Made by a program: the position numbers and the translations under genes. Under the pieces are notes generated by a model. The model saw only the letters and a program-made list of their open reading frames with translations. It was not told the DNA's origin and ran no database searches. Below, piece after piece: positions 46,760 to 53,831 of a stretch of DNA of 64,000 nucleotides. The stretch's first letter is position 1. Every line of letters starts with the position of its first letter. The stretch comes from Acidimicrobiales bacterium (lineage in GTDB: Bacteria > Actinomycetota > Acidimicrobiia > Acidimicrobiales > Iamiaceae), in NCBI GenBank assembly GCA_020439505.1, contig JAGQSO010000016.1, forward strand, positions 1-64,000, in the 5' to 3' direction.

Positions 46760-48163
46760 ATGGAGGTTTCCCCCTTGATCGATCAGGAAGTCGTCGCCCG
46801 GACCCTGGGTGTGGCCTTGAGCACCGGTGCGGATTTCGCCGAGGTGTTCGTGGAGGACAAGCGGTCCTCGTCGGCCCACTTCGACGACGGTCGGGTCGAG
46901 GAACTGGGTTCGGGTCGTGACCGGGGTGCGGGCATCCGGGTGGTGGCGGGCGAGACCACCGGATTCGCCCACACCGCGGACCTATCCGAGCGGGGACTGG
47001 CGGCAGCGGCCGAGGCGGCTGCCGCCGCGGCCAGAGCGGGTGGAGCGACGGTTCGCACCGTGGTGGTCGACCCGGTGGAGACGCGACCCCAGCCGGTTGA
47101 GATCCGCCCCGAGTCCGTGGCCAAGGGCGACAAGGTCGAGCTCTTGCGCCGGGCCGAGGCCGCGGCTCGCAGCCGGGGCGGTGCGATCACCCAGGTCTCG
47201 GCCACCTACGGGGACAGCCGCCGTCGGATCCTGGTCGCCAACAGCGACGGGCTGTGGGCCACCGACGACCAGACCCGAACCCTGTTCGTGGTGGGCGTGG
47301 TGGCCTCGGGAGACTCCGGAATGCAGACCGGCCGGCGGGCCATCGGCCACACCATGGGCTTCGAGTTGTTCGATCACCACCAGGTGGAGGACCTCGCCGT
47401 CGAGGCGGCGGATCAGGCCCTGACCAAACTGCGGGCTCGGCCTGCTCCCAGCGGGCAGCTTCCGGTCGTGATCGGCCGGGGAGGCGGTGGAGTTCTGTTC
47501 CACGAGGCCTGTGGACACGGCCTGGAGGCCGACCATGTCCACAAGGACGTGTCGGTGTTCGCCCGACGGGTGGGCGAACAGGTGGCCTCGCCCCTAGTCA
47601 CGTTGGTGGACGACTCCACCGTGGCCCACGAGTGGGGCAGCTTCGCCATCGACGACGAGGGCACGGCGGCTCAGCGCAACGTGTTGATCGAGGACGGCGT
47701 GCTGACCGACTACATCTGGGACCGCCTGCGTGCCGACGCCGTCGGTCACCGCCTCAGCGGCAACGGTCGCCGGCAGAGCTACCGGGACCTGCCCATGGTG
47801 AGGATGACGAACACCTACCTGGTCAACGGGACCGGATCGGCCGACGACATCGTGGCCGACACCCCCGAAGGCGTGTACGTGGCCCAGCTCGGCGGCGGGC
47901 AGGTGAACACCGCCACCGGTGACTTCGTGTTCGGGATGACCGAGGCCTACCTGATCGAGGACGGCAAGATCACCGAGCCTCTGCGCCAGGGCAACCTGAT
48001 CGGCAACGGACCCAAAGTGTTGGAGCTGATCGACGCGGTGGCCGACGACTTCGAATTCGGTCCGCCGGGGACCTGTGGCAAGGACGGCCAGGGGGTCCCC
48101 GTCGGCGACGGGGTTCCGACCCTGCGGGTGTCGAGCCTCACCGTCGGCGGTACGGCGGCCTGA
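46760..48163 (+). CDS. tldD: TldD-family metalloprotease subunit
   Basis: A 467-residue protein. N-terminal TldD/PmbA fold (LSTGADFAEVFVEDKRSSSAHFDDGRVEELGSGRDRGAGIRVVAGE), then the C-terminal domain with the zinc site VLFHEACGHGLEADHVHKD, where H-E-x-x-x-H and the later Cys bind zinc, and DIVADTPEGVYVAQLGGGQVNTATGDFVFGMTEAYLIEDGKIT. With TldE it forms a heterodimeric protease that degrades unfolded or modified peptides such as the leader peptides of microcin B17-type RiPPs. A TTG at 46775, 7 nt after GGAGGT, is an alternative start. tldE follows 11 bases on. Confidence 0.92.
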   Translation: MEVSPLIDQEVVARTLGVALSTGADFAEVFVEDKRSSSAHFDDGRVEELGSGRDRGAGIRVVAGETTGFAHTADLSERGLAAAAEAAAAAARAGGATVRTVVVDPVETRPQPVEIRPESVAKGDKVELLRRAEAAARSRGGAITQVSATYGDSRRRILVANSDGLWATDDQTRTLFVVGVVASGDSGMQTGRRAIGHTMGFELFDHHQVEDLAVEAADQALTKLRARPAPSGQLPVVIGRGGGGVLFHEACGHGLEADHVHKDVSVFARRVGEQVASPLVTLVDDSTVAHEWGSFAIDDEGTAAQRNVLIEDGVLTDYIWDRLRADAVGHRLSGNGRRQSYRDLPMVRMTNTYLVNGTGSADDIVADTPEGVYVAQLGGGQVNTATGDFVFGMTEAYLIEDGKITEPLRQGNLIGNGPKVLELIDAVADDFEFGPPGTCGKDGQGVPVGDGVPTLRVSSLTVGGTAA

Positions 48164-48174
48164 GGAGGCACACG

Positions 48175-49530
48175 ATGAGCGAGCTGTTGGACATGGCGGA
48201 ACGGATCGTGGCCCAGGCCCGTCCGGGAGAGCAGATAGAGGTGGTGGTCGGGCGGTCCCAGTCCACCGAGGTCCGGGCCTATCGGGGAGAGGTCGAGCAG
48301 TTCGCCTCGGCGACCTCGGCCGGACTCGGGGTCCGGGTGGTGGCCGATGGTCGGCAGGGCTTCGCCTACGCCGGAACCCTCGATGAGGACGTTACGGCCG
48401 AGACGCTGGCCGAGGCCCGCGACAACGCGACCTTCGCATCGGAAGATGAGTGGCTGGGCCTGGCCGAGCCCGACGGGGTCGAGGCGCCGGTGCTCGACGT
48501 GTACCGGGACTCGCTGGCCTCGGTGTCCACCGCCGAGCGGATCGAGCGGGCACTGGAGTTGGAGCGGATGGTCCGCGCCGCCGACACCCGAATCAGCGCG
48601 GTGGAGTCGGCCGACTACGCCGACGGGGTGTCGGAGGGAGCGGTGGTCTCCAGCACCGGGATCAGGGCCTACAGCCGTGAGACGTCGTGCTACGTGTCGG
48701 TCCACTGCGTGGCCACCGACGGCGACGACACCCAGACCGGATACGGCTTCTCGGTGGGACGCAGCCTCGACGAGCTGGACCTGGACCGGGCGGCGGCCGA
48801 CGCCGCCCGGCGGGCCACCCGGCTCCTGGGGGCGACCAAGCCGGCCAGCGGTCGGGTGACGGTGGTGCTCGATCCCTACGTCACCGCTCAGTTCCTGTCC
48901 ATCATCGGCTCCACCCTCTCGGGTGAGGCGGTGATCAAGGGGCGGTCACTGTTCGTGGACCGCCTGGGCGAGGAGGTCGCCGACGGCGGGTTCACCCTCG
49001 TCGACGATGCCACCAACCCACTGGCCTACAGCGCGAGCGAGACCGACGGCGAGGGGCTGGCGTCCCGGCGCAACGTGCTGATCGAGGACGGCGTCCTCCG
49101 CCGGTTCGTCCACAACGCCTACACCGCCCGCCGCACGGGTACCTCCTCCACCGCCAACGCGGTGCGGGGCTTCTCGTCGACCCCCGGCGTGGGCTGTCGG
49201 GCGCTGTCGTTGGCGCCCGGTACCCGGCTCCAGCCCGAACTGCTGGCCGCGGTCGGTGACGGGGTTCTGATCAGTTCGGTATCGGGCCTGCACTCAGGGG
49301 TGAACCCGGTCTCGGGCGACTTCTCCGCTGGGGCCGAGGGCCTGCGCATCGCCGGAGGGGAACTGGCCGAACCGTTGCGGGAGTTCACCATCGCTTCCAC
49401 CCTTCAGCGGATGATGGCCGAAGCCGGTGAGGTTGGTGCCGACGTCGAATGGCTGCCGATGAGGGCGGCCGGGGTGAGCCTGGTCGTGGGCGACGTGACG
49501 GTGTCGGGCCTGTCGGGCCTGTCGGGCTGA
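48175..49530 (+). CDS. tldE: TldE/PmbA-family protease partner
   Basis: A 451-residue inactive partner of TldD: same fold (EIEVVVGRSQSTEVRAYRGEVEQFASATSAGLGVRVVADGRQGFAYAGTLDED), but the C-terminal half lacks the HExxxH site (VVLDPYVTAQFLSIIGSTLSGEAVIKGRSLF in its place), as in PmbA. Later LIEDGVLRRFVHNAYTARRTGTSSTANAVRG and GVNPVSGDFSAGAEGLRIAGGELAEPLREFTIAST complete the family pattern. Together they form the TldD/E protease chamber. ATG follows GAGGAGG by 6 nt. The C-terminus ends in a short GLSGLSG repeat. No RiPP precursor or cyclase genes are nearby. Confidence 0.9.
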   Translation: MSELLDMAERIVAQARPGEQIEVVVGRSQSTEVRAYRGEVEQFASATSAGLGVRVVADGRQGFAYAGTLDEDVTAETLAEARDNATFASEDEWLGLAEPDGVEAPVLDVYRDSLASVSTAERIERALELERMVRAADTRISAVESADYADGVSEGAVVSSTGIRAYSRETSCYVSVHCVATDGDDTQTGYGFSVGRSLDELDLDRAAADAARRATRLLGATKPASGRVTVVLDPYVTAQFLSIIGSTLSGEAVIKGRSLFVDRLGEEVADGGFTLVDDATNPLAYSASETDGEGLASRRNVLIEDGVLRRFVHNAYTARRTGTSSTANAVRGFSSTPGVGCRALSLAPGTRLQPELLAAVGDGVLISSVSGLHSGVNPVSGDFSAGAEGLRIAGGELAEPLREFTIASTLQRMMAEAGEVGADVEWLPMRAAGVSLVVGDVTVSGLSGLSG

Positions 49531-49533
49531 CGG

Positions 49534-49566
49534 CCTGAGTTCGACCGTCGGCAGGGGCTCCTCAGG
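49534..49566. terminator. Inverted repeat between tldE and sigma-factor genes
   Basis: CCTGAG (49534-49539) and CTCAGG (49561-49566) pair perfectly; the right arm contains the sigma gene's stop codon. 21-nt loop, no T-tract. Confidence 0.35.
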
Positions 49567-51241
49567 GGATCCGATAGCCGCCGGTGACGATCTGTTGGAC
49601 CTTGCCGCCGGGGCCTTCGGCCACCAGCACGAACCGAGGGGGCGTGTAGTTGCCGCCGGTGCTGAGGTGGCAGATCGATGCCTTTCCCACCGACTTGCCG
49701 ATCGCCGCGGGGGCTCCCTCTAGGCCGTAGTACACCTGGGTGGTCTGGGTAGTGTCCCAGACCAGCTCGTAGAGAACCCCACCCCGGCACTGGTCGGTGG
49801 CGGTGGCGGTGAAGTCCAGGATCACCGGTGGGGCGGCGGGCGGCACGGTGTCCGTCGTCGTCTGGGTCGTGGAAGGCGAGGTGGGTCGTGGCGGAGTGGT
49901 CACGGTGGTCGCGGGCGGGTCGGTGACGGTCGTACCGGGCTGGGTGGGCGGGGGCGGGGTAGGGCGGCCCTCCGGGGTGGTCTGAGGTGGGCTGGTTCCA
50001 CCGCCGGGGACGGTGTCGGATCCGTCGATCACGAACCCGCCCTCGGCGGTGGTCGGCACTCCACTGGTCTCCGATGTCGCCGACGTCGAGTCCGTGCTCG
50101 AGGACGTGACCGGACCGTCGTCGGCAGGCTCGGTCGTGTCGGTAGAGATCGCGGCGAGGTGCGTCGAGTTGCCCCGAGCCGACAGGGAACCGCTGAGCCA
50201 GACCGCCCCGCCGACGAGCATCAACGCCACCGCCGCGACGGCGACCACCCGGACCCGCTTAGCGGTGGATCTGTCGTCGGCGTCGGGGGTCGGGTCGGAA
50301 TCCGACGGATCGGACGGGACGGCGACCGGCGACGCGACCGGTGACGCGACCGGTGATGCCGGGGTGGCGGTCCCGATGCCGGCTGGGGTGCCCAGGGCGG
50401 TGGATCCACCCATCGGGACCCCGGCGGCTTCGAGAGCCGATGCCGCCTGGGTCTTGAACACGAACGGTGCGGCGAGGACCGGGGCGGCACCGAACAGGGC
50501 GGCGGGGTTGAGGCGGTCCTCACGCTCTTGGCTGCACTGGTCGCAGACCTGGGCGTGGCGGTCGATGGCCTTGACCGCCTGCTTGTCGAAGGTGTGGATC
50601 CCAGCGTTGGCGAGGGTGCGGCGAAGGTTCTCACACGCCGGCCGGCCCGCCCGCCACAGCACCAGGGCCCGCACGTTGGTGCCCAGCCGTTTGCGGAGGG
50701 TGAAGAGCATCTGGTGGGCGTTGTTGGCGGTGGTGCCGAGCTCCTCGGCCAGCTCACCGGCGCCGAGGCCGTGGCGCAGGTGGAGGTCGAGGATGCTCAT
50801 GTCCCGCTCGCCCAGGGCGGCGGCGGCGTCCCACACCAGGGCCACTCGGCCCGCCTGGTCGAGGTGGGCGAGCGGGTCGTGGTCCGCAGCGTCCATGTCG
50901 GTGAGGGTGGTCATGGTCTCGTCATCCAGTGCGACGCTCCGGCGGTCCTTCTCCAGCCGGTTGAGCGACTTGTTGCGGGCGATCCGTAGGACCCATCCCC
51001 CGAAGGCGTCGGGGTCTTCGAGGTTGGCGAGACCGGTCCAGGCCGCCAGGAAGGTGTCCTGGGCGACCTCTCCCGCCGTGCCCGGATCCCGGACGATCCG
51101 GCGGGAGACGTCGTGCACCCGGTCGAACCAGGTGTCGAACAGCTTGCCGAAGGCCTGGTTGTCCCCGGCCCGAGCTGCTTCGACGAGGTTTCCCTCAGGT
51201 GTTCCGGCCATCTTCTTTCCCGCATCGTCGTGGACCTTCAT
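49562..51241 (-). CDS. Membrane-anchored ECF-type sigma factor with built-in zinc finger and extracellular domain
   Basis: A 559-residue fusion. Residues 17-100: sigma region 2 (DNQAFGKLFDTWFDRVHDVSRRIVRDPGTAGEVAQDTFLAAW, LRIARNKSLNRL). Residues ~130-190: region 4 helix-turn-helix (ALGERDMSILDLHLRHGLGAGELAEELGTTANNAHQMLFTLRKRLG). Residues 203-236: Cys203 and the anti-sigma-like His229-x3-Cys233-x2-Cys236. Residues 330-350: one transmembrane helix. Residues 370-470: Thr/Pro/Ser-rich linker. Residues 470-559: an Ig/FnIII-like outer domain with two Cys (485, 524). The layout recalls ECF groups with a fused zinc-finger anti-sigma. Cytosolic sigma, outer sensor. Likely released by proteolysis or conformational change; inference. 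ATG 51211 (after GGAAAGAAG) is an alternative start. Cotranscribed with the L,D-transpeptidase gene, 10 bases upstream. Confidence 0.85.
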   Translation of the reverse strand: MKVHDDAGKKMAGTPEGNLVEAARAGDNQAFGKLFDTWFDRVHDVSRRIVRDPGTAGEVAQDTFLAAWTGLANLEDPDAFGGWVLRIARNKSLNRLEKDRRSVALDDETMTTLTDMDAADHDPLAHLDQAGRVALVWDAAAALGERDMSILDLHLRHGLGAGELAEELGTTANNAHQMLFTLRKRLGTNVRALVLWRAGRPACENLRRTLANAGIHTFDKQAVKAIDRHAQVCDQCSQEREDRLNPAALFGAAPVLAAPFVFKTQAASALEAAGVPMGGSTALGTPAGIGTATPASPVASPVASPVAVPSDPSDSDPTPDADDRSTAKRVRVVAVAAVALMLVGGAVWLSGSLSARGNSTHLAAISTDTTEPADDGPVTSSSTDSTSATSETSGVPTTAEGGFVIDGSDTVPGGGTSPPQTTPEGRPTPPPPTQPGTTVTDPPATTVTTPPRPTSPSTTQTTTDTVPPAAPPVILDFTATATDQCRGGVLYELVWDTTQTTQVYYGLEGAPAAIGKSVGKASICHLSTGGNYTPPRFVLVAEGPGGKVQQIVTGGYRIP

Positions 51242-51251
51242 CTTTGCCGCT

Positions 51252-52064
51252 CTAGCGAACCACGACCGGGGTGCCGAGGGGAAGCAGCTCGTTGAGCTGG
51301 GTGATCACCTCGTTGGGGACCCGGATGCAACCGTGGGAGACCGCCTGGCCGATGCTGGAGGGGTCGTTGGTGCCGTGGATGCCGATCTGCCCGTCGCCGC
51401 CGGCGAAATCGGTGAGTACCTCGGAACGTCCCGACAGGCCGAGGGCGTAGGGCCCGTAGGCGCCGTCGGGGTTGGGGTCCTGGAGCTTGTCGGTGACCGA
51501 GAACATGCCGGTGGGGGTGGGGTACTCGGCCGAGCCGATGGCGACCGGGGTGGACAGGACCGCCTGGCCGTTGTCGAACAGGGTCAGGGTACGGGCCTCG
51601 AGGTCGACCTGGATGTGGGTCGAGACGCTGCGGAGCTCGACGTCAGCGTTCTGAGCGGAGTCGAGCCAGGCCTTGGTCCCGGTGGGGCGCCCGGGAACCA
51701 GGACCTCGAGCCAGCCGCCCTGTTGGTTGGTCACCAGCAGGGCCAGCTTGCTGCCGAAGGAGTTGGTGGCAGCCACGGTGCGGGTGGGTGAGCTGTTGTC
51801 GGGCTGTTCGTGGAGGACCAGGTCGTGTTCGGAGCGGACCACGTACACCTGGGTGGCGGGGGCCTGGGCCTGGGCGGTGGTGGTCTCGGTGACCTCGTCG
51901 GGTGATGTGGAGGTGGAGCCGTCGGCCTTCTGGGCGGTGGTCACCGGGGGCCGGTCGAGGGCCTCGGGTCCGTTGCCCGACGACGAGCAGGCGGACCCGA
52001 GGAGCCCGACGGTGAGAGCCAGGGTGGCGAGGGCGGCGGAGCGGAGGCGGCGGTTGGTGTTCAT
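51252..52064 (-). CDS. L,D-transpeptidase lipoprotein (YkuD)
   Basis: A 270-residue exported protein: signal ALATLALTVGLLGSACSSSG (lipid Cys about residue 26), Thr-rich linker, an SH3-like part (QVYVVRSEHDLVLHEQPDNSS ... WLEVLVPGRPTGTKAWLDS, residues 72-135), then the YkuD catalytic domain (STHIQVDLEARTLTLFDNGQAVLSTPVAIG, PTPTGMFSVTDKL, QIGIHGTNDPSSIGQAVSHGCIRVPNEVITQL). Catalytic His230 and Cys246 in SHGCIR are intact. It cross-links peptidoglycan 3-3 or attaches proteins to it outside the membrane. It starts the operon with the membrane-anchored sigma factor and has the same upstream module as the repeat-protein gene, so it is probably a target of that sigma. Confidence 0.92.
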   Translation of the reverse strand: MNTNRRLRSAALATLALTVGLLGSACSSSGNGPEALDRPPVTTAQKADGSTSTSPDEVTETTTAQAQAPATQVYVVRSEHDLVLHEQPDNSSPTRTVAATNSFGSKLALLVTNQQGGWLEVLVPGRPTGTKAWLDSAQNADVELRSVSTHIQVDLEARTLTLFDNGQAVLSTPVAIGSAEYPTPTGMFSVTDKLQDPNPDGAYGPYALGLSGRSEVLTDFAGGDGQIGIHGTNDPSSIGQAVSHGCIRVPNEVITQLNELLPLGTPVVVR

Positions 52065-52096
52065 GGCAGGGGTTCCCTTCCGGGTTGGTGGGTGAT

Positions 52097-52133
52097 GTAC
52101 CCGTCCTGACCGTCGAGTGGATCGGTCCTTAGG
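52097..52133 (-). promoter_or_regulatory. ECF-type promoter of the L,D-transpeptidase-sigma operon
   Basis: Minus strand CCTAAG (52128-52133), 15 nt, CGGTC (52108-52112) within a 14-nt block CGGTCAGGACGGGT identical to one upstream of the repeat-protein gene; a GAAAAGAATCC lies just further upstream. About 44 nt from the ATG. Confidence 0.6.
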
Positions 52134-52192
52134 GGTTTTCGGGGATTCTTTTCAGCGGGTGGGCCGGGCCGGGCGCGCCAAGACGCCAGAAG

Positions 52193-52221
52193 CCGGCGGG
52201 AGTCGCTGGGACTCCCGCCGG
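52193..52221. terminator. Strong hairpin (12-bp arms) after the repeat-protein gene
   Basis: CCGGCGGGAGTC (52193-52204) and GACTCCCGCCGG (52210-52221) pair perfectly with a 5-nt loop, 60 bases past the repeat-protein stop and ahead of the transpeptidase promoter. It separates the two transcription units. Confidence 0.65.
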
Positions 52222-52280
52222 TTCCGGCCCGCCTCGGCTTCGACCCCCTGCCGGTCGTCACCGAGAACTGCTGAGGGTTG

Positions 52281-52841
52281 TCAGCCGGTGAAGGTGGGAC
52301 GAGCCATCACCGGGCGGTCCACCGTGCTGTGGTCCACGGTGGGCCGGTCCTGGGGCCGGTCGGGGGTGGTGTCGTGGGGCTGGTCGGGGGTGGTGTCCTC
52401 CGGGGTGTCCGGCGTGGTGTCGTGGGGCTGGTCGGGGGTGGTGTCCTCGGGGACATCGGGGGTGGTGTCCTCGGGCACGTCGGGGGTGGTGTCCTCGGGC
52501 ACGTCATCGGGGCAGTCGATGAACAGGCAGGGGTCCAGCGGGGGGAGCTCGGGGACCTCCTCCACCTCGGGCGGGCCGCAGTCGACGAACAGGCAGGGGT
52601 CGATCGGGGGGAGCTCGGGCAGGGTGAAGTCCGGGGGGAGCTCCACGACCGGGGGAACCTCGAGCACCGGTGGGATCGAGATCACCGGGGCGTCGGGGAA
52701 GATCGGCAGGGCCGAGGCCGGCGACGCCAGTCCCACCCCGACCGCCACCGGCAGGGCGGCAGCCAGGGCGAGGCGGCTGATCGAGCGGCGGGTGTTGCGG
52801 CGGGCACTGCGGTTGGTGTTGGAGTTGGAGTTGGTGTTCAT
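52281..52841 (-). CDS. Secreted Pro/Thr/Asp repeat protein, unknown function
   Basis: A 186-residue protein I cannot assign to a family. Signal peptide: Asn/Ser/Thr/Arg-rich start, RLALAAALPVAVGVGLASPASA, cleavage likely near residue 44. Then a Pro-rich stretch with a 14-residue duplication ELPP(I/L)DPCLF(V/I)DC at residues 75-88 and 97-110, giving two Cys pairs. Residues 113-165 are seven or so copies of an 8-residue unit of the form DTTPD(V/Q/T)P(E/H), acidic and extended, like a cell-wall spacer. No transmembrane or LPXTG anchor. Shares its upstream module with the L,D-transpeptidase-sigma operon, so it may be a wall-associated protein cross-linked or placed by that enzyme; inference. Confidence 0.6.
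   Translation of the reverse strand: MNTNSNSNTNRSARRNTRRSISRLALAAALPVAVGVGLASPASALPIFPDAPVISIPPVLEVPPVVELPPDFTLPELPPIDPCLFVDCGPPEVEEVPELPPLDPCLFIDCPDDVPEDTTPDVPEDTTPDVPEDTTPDQPHDTTPDTPEDTTPDQPHDTTPDRPQDRPTVDHSTVDRPVMARPTFTG
52360..52505 (-). repeat. Coding tandem repeats (about 24-bp unit) in the secreted protein gene
   Basis: Plus-strand copies of a unit like GGGGGTGGTGTCCTCGGGCAC repeat with small changes, encoding the DTTPD-type 8-residue units. Uneven copies suggest expansion by slippage. Confidence 0.7.
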
Positions 52842-52877
52842 GGCGGGAGTCCTCCTCGGACTGTTCTTGGTGGGTAC

Positions 52878-52912
52878 ACCCGTCCTGACCGGCCACCGGA
52901 ACGCCTCTTAGG
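52878..52912 (-). promoter_or_regulatory. ECF-type promoter of the secreted repeat-protein gene
   Basis: Minus strand CCTAAG (52907-52912), 15 nt, CGGTC (52887-52891) in the block CGGTCAGGACGGGT, identical to the block of the transpeptidase promoter with the same spacing, and about 46 nt from the ATG. Confidence 0.6.
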
Positions 52913-53009: not shown

Positions 53010-53831
53010 GTGTCGACGCTGGAAGCCATCATCTTGGGGCTGGTGCAAGGCCTCACCGAGTTCCTGCCCGTCTCCTCCAGCGGTCATCTGCGGATCGTTC
53101 CTGCCGTGCTCGGTTGGGACGACCCGGGAGCGGCGTTCACCGCCGTCATCCAGTTGGGAACCATGGCCGCGGTGGTCATCTACTTCTGGAAGGACCTGTG
53201 GTCCATCGCCGGAGCATGGTTGGCGTCGTTGCGGGATCCGTCCCGCCGGGGCGACCTGGAGGCCCGCCTCGGTTGGTACCTGATAGTGGCCACCGTGCCG
53301 ATCGGCCTGTTCGGGCTGGCCTTCAAGGACCAGATCGAGTCCGGGGCGCGGGACCTGCGCCTCATCGCCGGCACCCTCATAGTCATGGGCCTGGTGTTGT
53401 TGGTGGCCGAGAAGGTGGGGACCCGCACCCGCGAGCTCGAGGACCTGACCACACCCCACGGGGTGGCGGTCGGTCTGGCCCAGAGCATGGCCCTGGTACC
53501 TGGGGTGTCCCGGTCGGGATCAACGATCACCGCCGGGTTGTTCTTGGGTTACTCCAGGGAGGCGGCCGCCCGGTTCTCGTTCCTGTTGTCGGTGCCGGCG
53601 GTGGTGCTGTCGGGGTTGTTCCAGCTCAAAGATGTCGGAGCCGGAGACGGGCCCGGTCTCGGCCCGACGGTCGTCGCCGCCGTTGTCTCCTTCGTGGTGG
53701 GCTATGCCGCGATCGCATGGTTGCTGCGGTACCTGACCACCCACTCCACGGTGGTGTTCGTGGTCTACCGGGTTGCCCTGGGCCTGGTGCTGGTGGGGCT
53801 GCTCCTGGGTGGGCAGGTCGAGCCCCGTTGA
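53010..53831 (+). CDS. uppP: Undecaprenyl-diphosphatase
   Basis: A 273-residue BacA-type membrane enzyme with 8 helices. First motif LGLVQGLTEFLPVSSSGHLRI (Glu and Ser/His of the active site) and second PGVSRSGSTITAGLFLGYSREAAARFSFLLSVP (Arg of the PGxSRSGxT site) are both intact. It dephosphorylates undecaprenyl diphosphate so the lipid carrier can be reused for peptidoglycan and other glycans; overproduction gives bacitracin resistance. Its place next to the transpeptidase and repeat-protein genes makes an envelope-themed block. The GTG start is leaderless. Confidence 0.95.
   Translation: MSTLEAIILGLVQGLTEFLPVSSSGHLRIVPAVLGWDDPGAAFTAVIQLGTMAAVVIYFWKDLWSIAGAWLASLRDPSRRGDLEARLGWYLIVATVPIGLFGLAFKDQIESGARDLRLIAGTLIVMGLVLLVAEKVGTRTRELEDLTTPHGVAVGLAQSMALVPGVSRSGSTITAGLFLGYSREAAARFSFLLSVPAVVLSGLFQLKDVGAGDGPGLGPTVVAAVVSFVVGYAAIAWLLRYLTTHSTVVFVVYRVALGLVLVGLLLGGQVEPR

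Follow-up and report, generated by a model that had tools for sequence, protein, structure and literature searches.

Organization of the locus

The window analyzed here is a stretch of 64,000 nucleotides from an Acidimicrobiales bacterium (contig JAGQSO010000016.1). Its minus strand carries the gene of a small secreted protein, followed by an operon for an L,D-transpeptidase with both the YkuD domain and the catalytic HGC motif (SHGCIR with Cys246) and for a membrane-anchored sigma factor (Table 1). The strong hairpin between the secreted gene and the operon is probably a terminator and has an equivalent in a congener (G002; z -6.7); such a separation would explain why the operon possesses a promoter module of its own. 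A second wall gene, uppP/BacA (undecaprenyl-pyrophosphate phosphatase; 53010-53831), lies on the same intergenic region as the secreted gene and is divergent to it, as is also the case in the congeners G002 and G003. Directly past the sigma gene, and in the opposite direction, two adjacent plus-strand genes (46760-49530; 467 and 451 aa) resemble the TldD/TldE (PmbA) metalloprotease pair.

Table 1. Features of the locus in the order in which the minus strand is read; promoter and terminator assignments are predictions.
Feature	Position	Strand	Basis
Promoter module P1 of the secreted gene, CCTAAG-N15-CGGTCAGG	52884..52912	-	ATG of the gene at 52841
Secreted small protein, 186 aa: signal peptide, Pro/Asp/Thr-rich repeats, MARPTFTG-stop	52281..52841	-	Tail conserved in orthologues
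PTFTG-stop codons, conserved C-terminal tail	52281..52298	-	Orthologue ends
Strong hairpin, probable terminator, between secreted gene and operon	52187..52226	-	-32.4 kcal/mol, z -4.4
Promoter module P2 of the transpeptidase-sigma operon, same CCTAAG-N15-CGGTCAGG pattern	52105..52133	-	ATG at 52064
YkuD L,D-transpeptidase, lipoprotein-like signal (GSAC), HGT...SHGCIR, Cys246	51252..52064	-	Pfam YkuD 4.5e-24
Membrane ECF sigma factor with fused regulatory part, 559 aa	49562..51241	-	Pfam, TIGR02937
Sigma regions 2 and 4, aa 19-190	50672..51187	-	Pfam Sigma70_r2, TIGR02937, solved relatives
Codon of Asn94, covarying with the -10 base	50960..50962	-	Column scan, alignment with solved sigma factors
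HxxxCxxC, aa 229-236, putative zinc-binding anti-sigma domain	50534..50557	-	H229, C233, C236 invariant
Transmembrane helix, aa 330-351	50189..50254	-	Hydropathy maximum at aa 332
Extracytoplasmic C-terminal Ig/FN3-like beta-sandwich, aa 465-559	49565..49849	-	Structure prediction, pLDDT 92

In agreement with the original prediction that the operon encodes a membrane-anchored sigma factor, sigma regions and a membrane helix were found in a single chain. The sigma part belongs with the ECF (group IV) factors by similarity (Pfam Sigma70_r2, 2e-11; TIGR02937, 62.5 bits with a cut-off of 42.9), and its solved relatives are sigma-E, SigW, and sigma-H. Region 4 scores below the Pfam cut-off in the window protein and above it in two homologues (L088 and L087). 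H229, C233, and C236 of the putative zinc motif are invariant in close sigma homologues; Pfam zf-HC2 gave no significant match to this region of the window protein. Beyond the membrane helix, a Thr/Pro-rich stalk leads to the 95-residue outer domain, which belongs to no Pfam or NCBIfam family. Its likeness is to the widespread Ig/FN3/PKD fold and goes no further (Foldseek best E 0.007; VIA-align Z ~9), and we therefore assign it neither a name nor a function. In genome G092, the homologue has a PASTA domain (Pfam 3e-11) in place of the Ig-like one (L083 1463-2929). PASTA domains bind cell-wall fragments in PknB-type kinases, and their presence in this position is suggestive of cell-wall fragment sensing.

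Two copies of one probable promoter module

The same module stands before both minus-strand genes at the places originally described, each copy reading CCTAAG-N15-CGGTCAGGACGGGT on the minus strand (52912-52884 and 52133-52105). A motif search of the whole genome (3.4 Mb), proposed earlier as a check, returned exactly two matches to CCTAAG-N15-CGGTCAGG, namely P1 and P2, with approximately 0.04 expected from base composition and none for the reversed pattern. A slightly longer pattern with one mismatch tolerated again recovered only P1 and P2. Measured from the end of CGGTC, the ATG is 45 nt away at P1 and 43 nt away at P2; the 46 and 44 nt reported before reflect a one-nucleotide shift in the reference point.

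To place the module in its family, loci around homologues of the sigma gene were compared. A sigma-alignment search of named genomes yielded 40 loci (Acidimicrobiia, Nitriliruptorales, Haloechinothrix, and others), and the spacer scan took in these together with earlier loci. TAAG-Nn-GTCAGG occurred 42 times at n = 17 and four times at n = 18 around sigma homologues, never at n = 10-16 or 19-22, and the reversed control gave three matches in all. After copies had been removed, 44 distinct modules of the form STAAG-N15-SGTCAGGA were left around sigma homologues of other Actinomycetota, with more distant homologues showing GTAAG where the window has CTAAG. Their logo, STAAG(G/S)-N-SGTCAGGAC, has rigid spacing of the -35 and -10 blocks, with a pyrimidine at -1 and a purine at +1, 10 nt past the C of GTC. 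From this position, transcription is predicted to start at 52877 (G) for P1 and at 52098 (A) for P2, just outside the range of 5-9 nt after CGGTC that had been foreseen.

The family comparison also narrows the extent of the module. The 14-mer noted originally is identical in the two window copies, and the part conserved across the family is the core STAAG-N15-SGTCAGGA(C), not the full 14-mer. Similarly, the GAAAAGA(A)TCC-like stretch upstream (GAAAAGAATCC) is a real similarity within the window and is not conserved: only six of the 44 homologous modules have GAAAA within 30 nt upstream, and for this reason the A-rich stretch was rejected as part of the module. Two module-like matches are probably due to chance, one with no gene behind it (G092:C14) and one followed by an ATPase-like gene (G003:4415833). 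In two near-identical genomes (L101 5357 and L102 4934, minus strand), a well-matching module lies ~3.35 kb downstream of the sigma start.

Genes behind the module

Every target identified for the module either is the sigma gene or encodes an exported protein; the exported proteins include the PxFTG protein and the transpeptidase, the latter being among the most constant targets. The module precedes both the secreted gene and the transpeptidase-sigma operon in the congeners G002 and G003, and in G017 and G092 the secreted gene, the transpeptidase, and the sigma factor form one operon behind a single module. Loci with two modules have the same -10 type in both (14 of 14). Modules unlinked to the sigma gene were found before a PxFTG-transpeptidase (G004), before lipoproteins with the sigma factor's own outer-domain type (G003; a target at L114 is of the same type), before a Calx-beta protein (G338), and before a homologue of the secreted family to which the G004 target belongs (G020). 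Since the module also occurs at such loci, tandem duplication does not explain why it is shared. The G003 lipoprotein genes are a tandem pair (L085 2304-3998), each with its own module and a domain like the sigma factor's outer domain; their products are possibly decoys or co-sensors. Cultured carriers of the system include Aquihabitans sp. G128 and Haloechinothrix alba DSM 45207. The match to the transpeptidase of Aquihabitans sp. G128 (L010 2424-3027; L091 5397-6018) is split over two reading frames, and its complete genome thus has an apparent frameshift there.

The linked sigma factor as probable reader of the module

The distribution of the module follows that of the sigma gene. Of the first 61 relatives, nine have the sigma factor, in one case known only from a fragment at the end of a contig, and seven of these nine carry the strict module; none of the 52 genomes lacking the sigma factor does (Fisher p 8e-8). 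In a maximum-likelihood tree of the sigma proteins, the strict module accompanied 22 of the 31 members of one supported clade and none of the nine sequences outside. Several of the nine remaining clade members lie on truncated contigs and others have variants; L115, L121, and L104, inside the clade, show weaker or near matches.

The strongest evidence comes from covariation between the promoter and the protein. Across 27 loci, GTC is preceded by G 17 times and by C 10 times, and residue 94 of the sigma factor is Asn (16) or Thr (1) at the GGTC loci and Asp at all 10 CGTC loci. The mutual information of this pairing, 0.95 bits, is the maximum and is reached by no other column (the next has 0.65). 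Residue 94 was picked from approximately 280 columns of related, hence not independent, sequences, a concern that the perfect partition and the repeated switches limit and do not remove: the tree forces at least three switches between the GGTC and CGTC types, and one clade contains both. Loci outside the scan (L121, L104, L100, and L115) agree with the pairing. Asn94 aligns with Asn in Escherichia coli sigma-E and with Asp in SigW, and by its offset from a conserved Trp and Asn it corresponds to N92 of Mycobacterium tuberculosis sigma-H, a residue that forms a hydrogen bond with the template base in the first -10 pair (PMC6411747). That pair adjoins the covarying base. These comparisons point to the linked membrane sigma factor as the reader of the module.

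Each genome encodes several further ECF sigma factors, and one of them could in principle read a genuine ECF promoter of which the linked sigma gene is only a target. Such an arrangement is very improbable given that the presence of the module tracks this particular sigma gene over genomes and clades and that the -10 base covaries, through several independent switches, with a residue by which this same protein contacts DNA. We give still less credence to the idea that the module is no promoter at all, being instead a transcription-factor site, a leader RNA element, or the remnant of an upstream duplication. The two window genes do have their start region (MNTN) and the A-rich upstream stretch in common; yet the element is asymmetric and oriented to the downstream start, the median GTC-to-ATG distance being 56 nt ahead of PxFTG and transpeptidase genes, its -35 and -10 blocks keep a fixed distance with an initiator YR at the expected place, and, at unlinked loci, it stands before unrelated genes as well. 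Covariation with a sigma factor is likewise at odds with a non-promoter element, and a search of the locus against Rfam gave no match at E 1.

The two window modules are thus very probably real promoters. The original reading of them as ECF promoters gains support from the conserved rigid spacing, the co-occurrence with the sigma gene, and the residue-base covariation. Autoregulation by the operon's own sigma factor, of the kind associated with ECF factors through a two-block promoter with a rigid spacer, is backed by the same comparative sequence evidence, as is the predicted co-control of the transpeptidase and the secreted gene, for which the unlinked targets of the same kind add weight.

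A conserved PxFTG tail on exported proteins

The small protein had been described as a secreted, spacer-like repeat protein. It does have a secretion signal and repeats; the repeats are unconserved, and the family is defined by its C-terminal tail, orthologues ending in PTFTG, PNFTG, PSFTG, PKFTG, or PDFTG. Over 296 genomes, [AG]xPxFTG-stop gave 55 matches, up to ten per genome, as opposed to six for the reversed pattern. The tail recurs in Acidimicrobiia on unrelated exported proteins whose linkers are rich in Thr or Gly (L062-L082, L137-L166), and a second example in the window's own genome ends in RSGRPSFTG (G000:C250:6780). At G332, G076, and G036, genes with the tail lie beside the same transpeptidase subfamily, with no sigma factor of the family seen there. 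The subfamily is present in 11 of 12 genomes with tails and in 4 of 12 without (p 0.005, not corrected for relatedness).

A literature search for the PTFTG tail produced no relevant match, and the conserved tail may point to a novel mode of surface-protein handling. As a tentative and rather doubtful proposal, [AG]xPxFTG-stop could serve as a signal, not described before, for sorting or attaching secreted actinobacterial proteins; the L,D-transpeptidase encoded alongside, or a partner, would act on this signal, and the sigma factor would control the attachment system. The cell might even sense free PxFTG tails, in analogy to DegS, which senses the C-termini of outer-membrane proteins.

Proposed mechanism

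Our best explanation, held with high confidence, is that a self-controlled membrane sigma factor reads both modules and drives the transpeptidase operon and the secreted PTFTG gene. P1 and P2 would be ECF promoters with CTAAG as -35 and GGTCAGGA as -10 element, recognized by the sigma factor of the downstream operon. This single chain would combine cytoplasmic sigma-2 and sigma-4 regions, a built-in HxxxCxxC anti-sigma domain, the membrane helix, the Thr/Pro stalk, and a wall-facing Ig-like domain. At rest the sigma factor would be kept at the membrane. A signal from the wall or envelope, received by the outer domain, would set the sigma part free, with regulated proteolysis as the likeliest route. 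Once free, it would transcribe its own operon, giving positive feedback and, through the L,D-transpeptidase, 3-3 cross-linking of the wall, and would also switch on the small secreted protein with its PTFTG end.

Envelope stress as the signal, a function of the fused part as anti-sigma factor, release by proteolysis, and consequences for the wall are inferred from sigma-D/RsdA, IutY, and SCO4117; the direction in which regulation would run in vivo and the function proposed for the secreted protein are of the same conjectural kind. The same sigma factor and promoters could instead serve a developmental or constitutive program of surface building, which differs from our explanation solely in the input signal. 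The fused sigma factor SCO4117 (ECF52) controls development in Streptomyces (PMC5826349), and the targets in some genomes include adhesion-like Calx-beta and FN3-like secreted proteins. We regard this alternative as possible, if unlikely: the constancy of the transpeptidase as a target and the PASTA domain of one homologue tell against it, as does corynebacterial sigma-D, whose -35 element and spacing are related and which responds to envelope defects and has an L,D-transpeptidase under its control (PMC5508688, PMC11175481). Our preferred explanation would tie a membrane-anchored transcription factor to 3-3 cross-linking of the wall. The sequence comparisons by themselves delimit the promoter and the core regulon for a family of fused sigma/anti-sigma factors in the poorly studied Acidimicrobiia and their relatives, and the residue-base covariation can be tested by a single swap.

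Comparison with known systems

The plan of a fused sigma and anti-sigma factor is known from ECF48, ECF52, and ECF53, for which proteolytic release is thought to occur (PMC8999054, PMC5826349). SCO4117 of Streptomyces coelicolor (ECF52) consists of a sigma part with zinc finger, a membrane helix, a Pro-rich extension, and an outer domain, and autoregulation has been proposed for it (PMC5826349). The window sigma factor shares the fused zinc-finger-type region, its zinc binding being putative, as well as the helix and the Pro-rich extension; its outer domain, however, is Ig-like (PASTA in G092) and not an NPCBM-type carbohydrate-binding module. ECF52 proteins have a C-terminal carbohydrate-binding module of the smart00776 type. 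As searches of Pfam and NCBIfam found no carbohydrate-binding family in the window protein, we did not file it under ECF52 on this domain evidence. The gene neighborhood of the window sigma factor is unlike that of SCO4117, and its module, STAAG-N15-SGTCAGGA, differs from the putative SCO4117 motif CSGY-N17-SRHA, itself unproven (PMC5826349).

IutY of Pseudomonas putida is a fused sigma/anti-sigma factor released by proteolysis (PMC8999054), and the window protein resembles it as a one-protein sigma factor with a putative C-terminal membrane anti-sigma part, for which proteolysis would be expected by analogy; iron-starvation signaling via an outer-membrane receptor is particular to IutY. Sigma-D of Corynebacterium glutamicum and Mycobacterium recognizes a -35 GTAAC and, after N17-18, a -10 GAT, is held by the membrane anti-sigma factor RsdA, and governs a wall-related regulon including the L,D-transpeptidase lppS (PMC11588781, PMC5508688, PMC11175481). 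The -35 element (STAAG), a similar spacer, and a wall-related ECF regulon with an L,D-transpeptidase are common to both systems, whereas in the window the putative anti-sigma part is fused to the sigma factor and not a separate RsdA, the -10 element is SGTCAGGA and not GAT, and the remaining targets are surface proteins of the Ig-like kind or with a PxFTG tail. Finally, the window transpeptidase has the catalytic domain and the HGT...SHGCxR motif of YkuD L,D-transpeptidases, and what sets its subfamily apart is that its genes repeatedly neighbor those of secreted proteins with the PxFTG tail, whether the sigma gene is close by or not.
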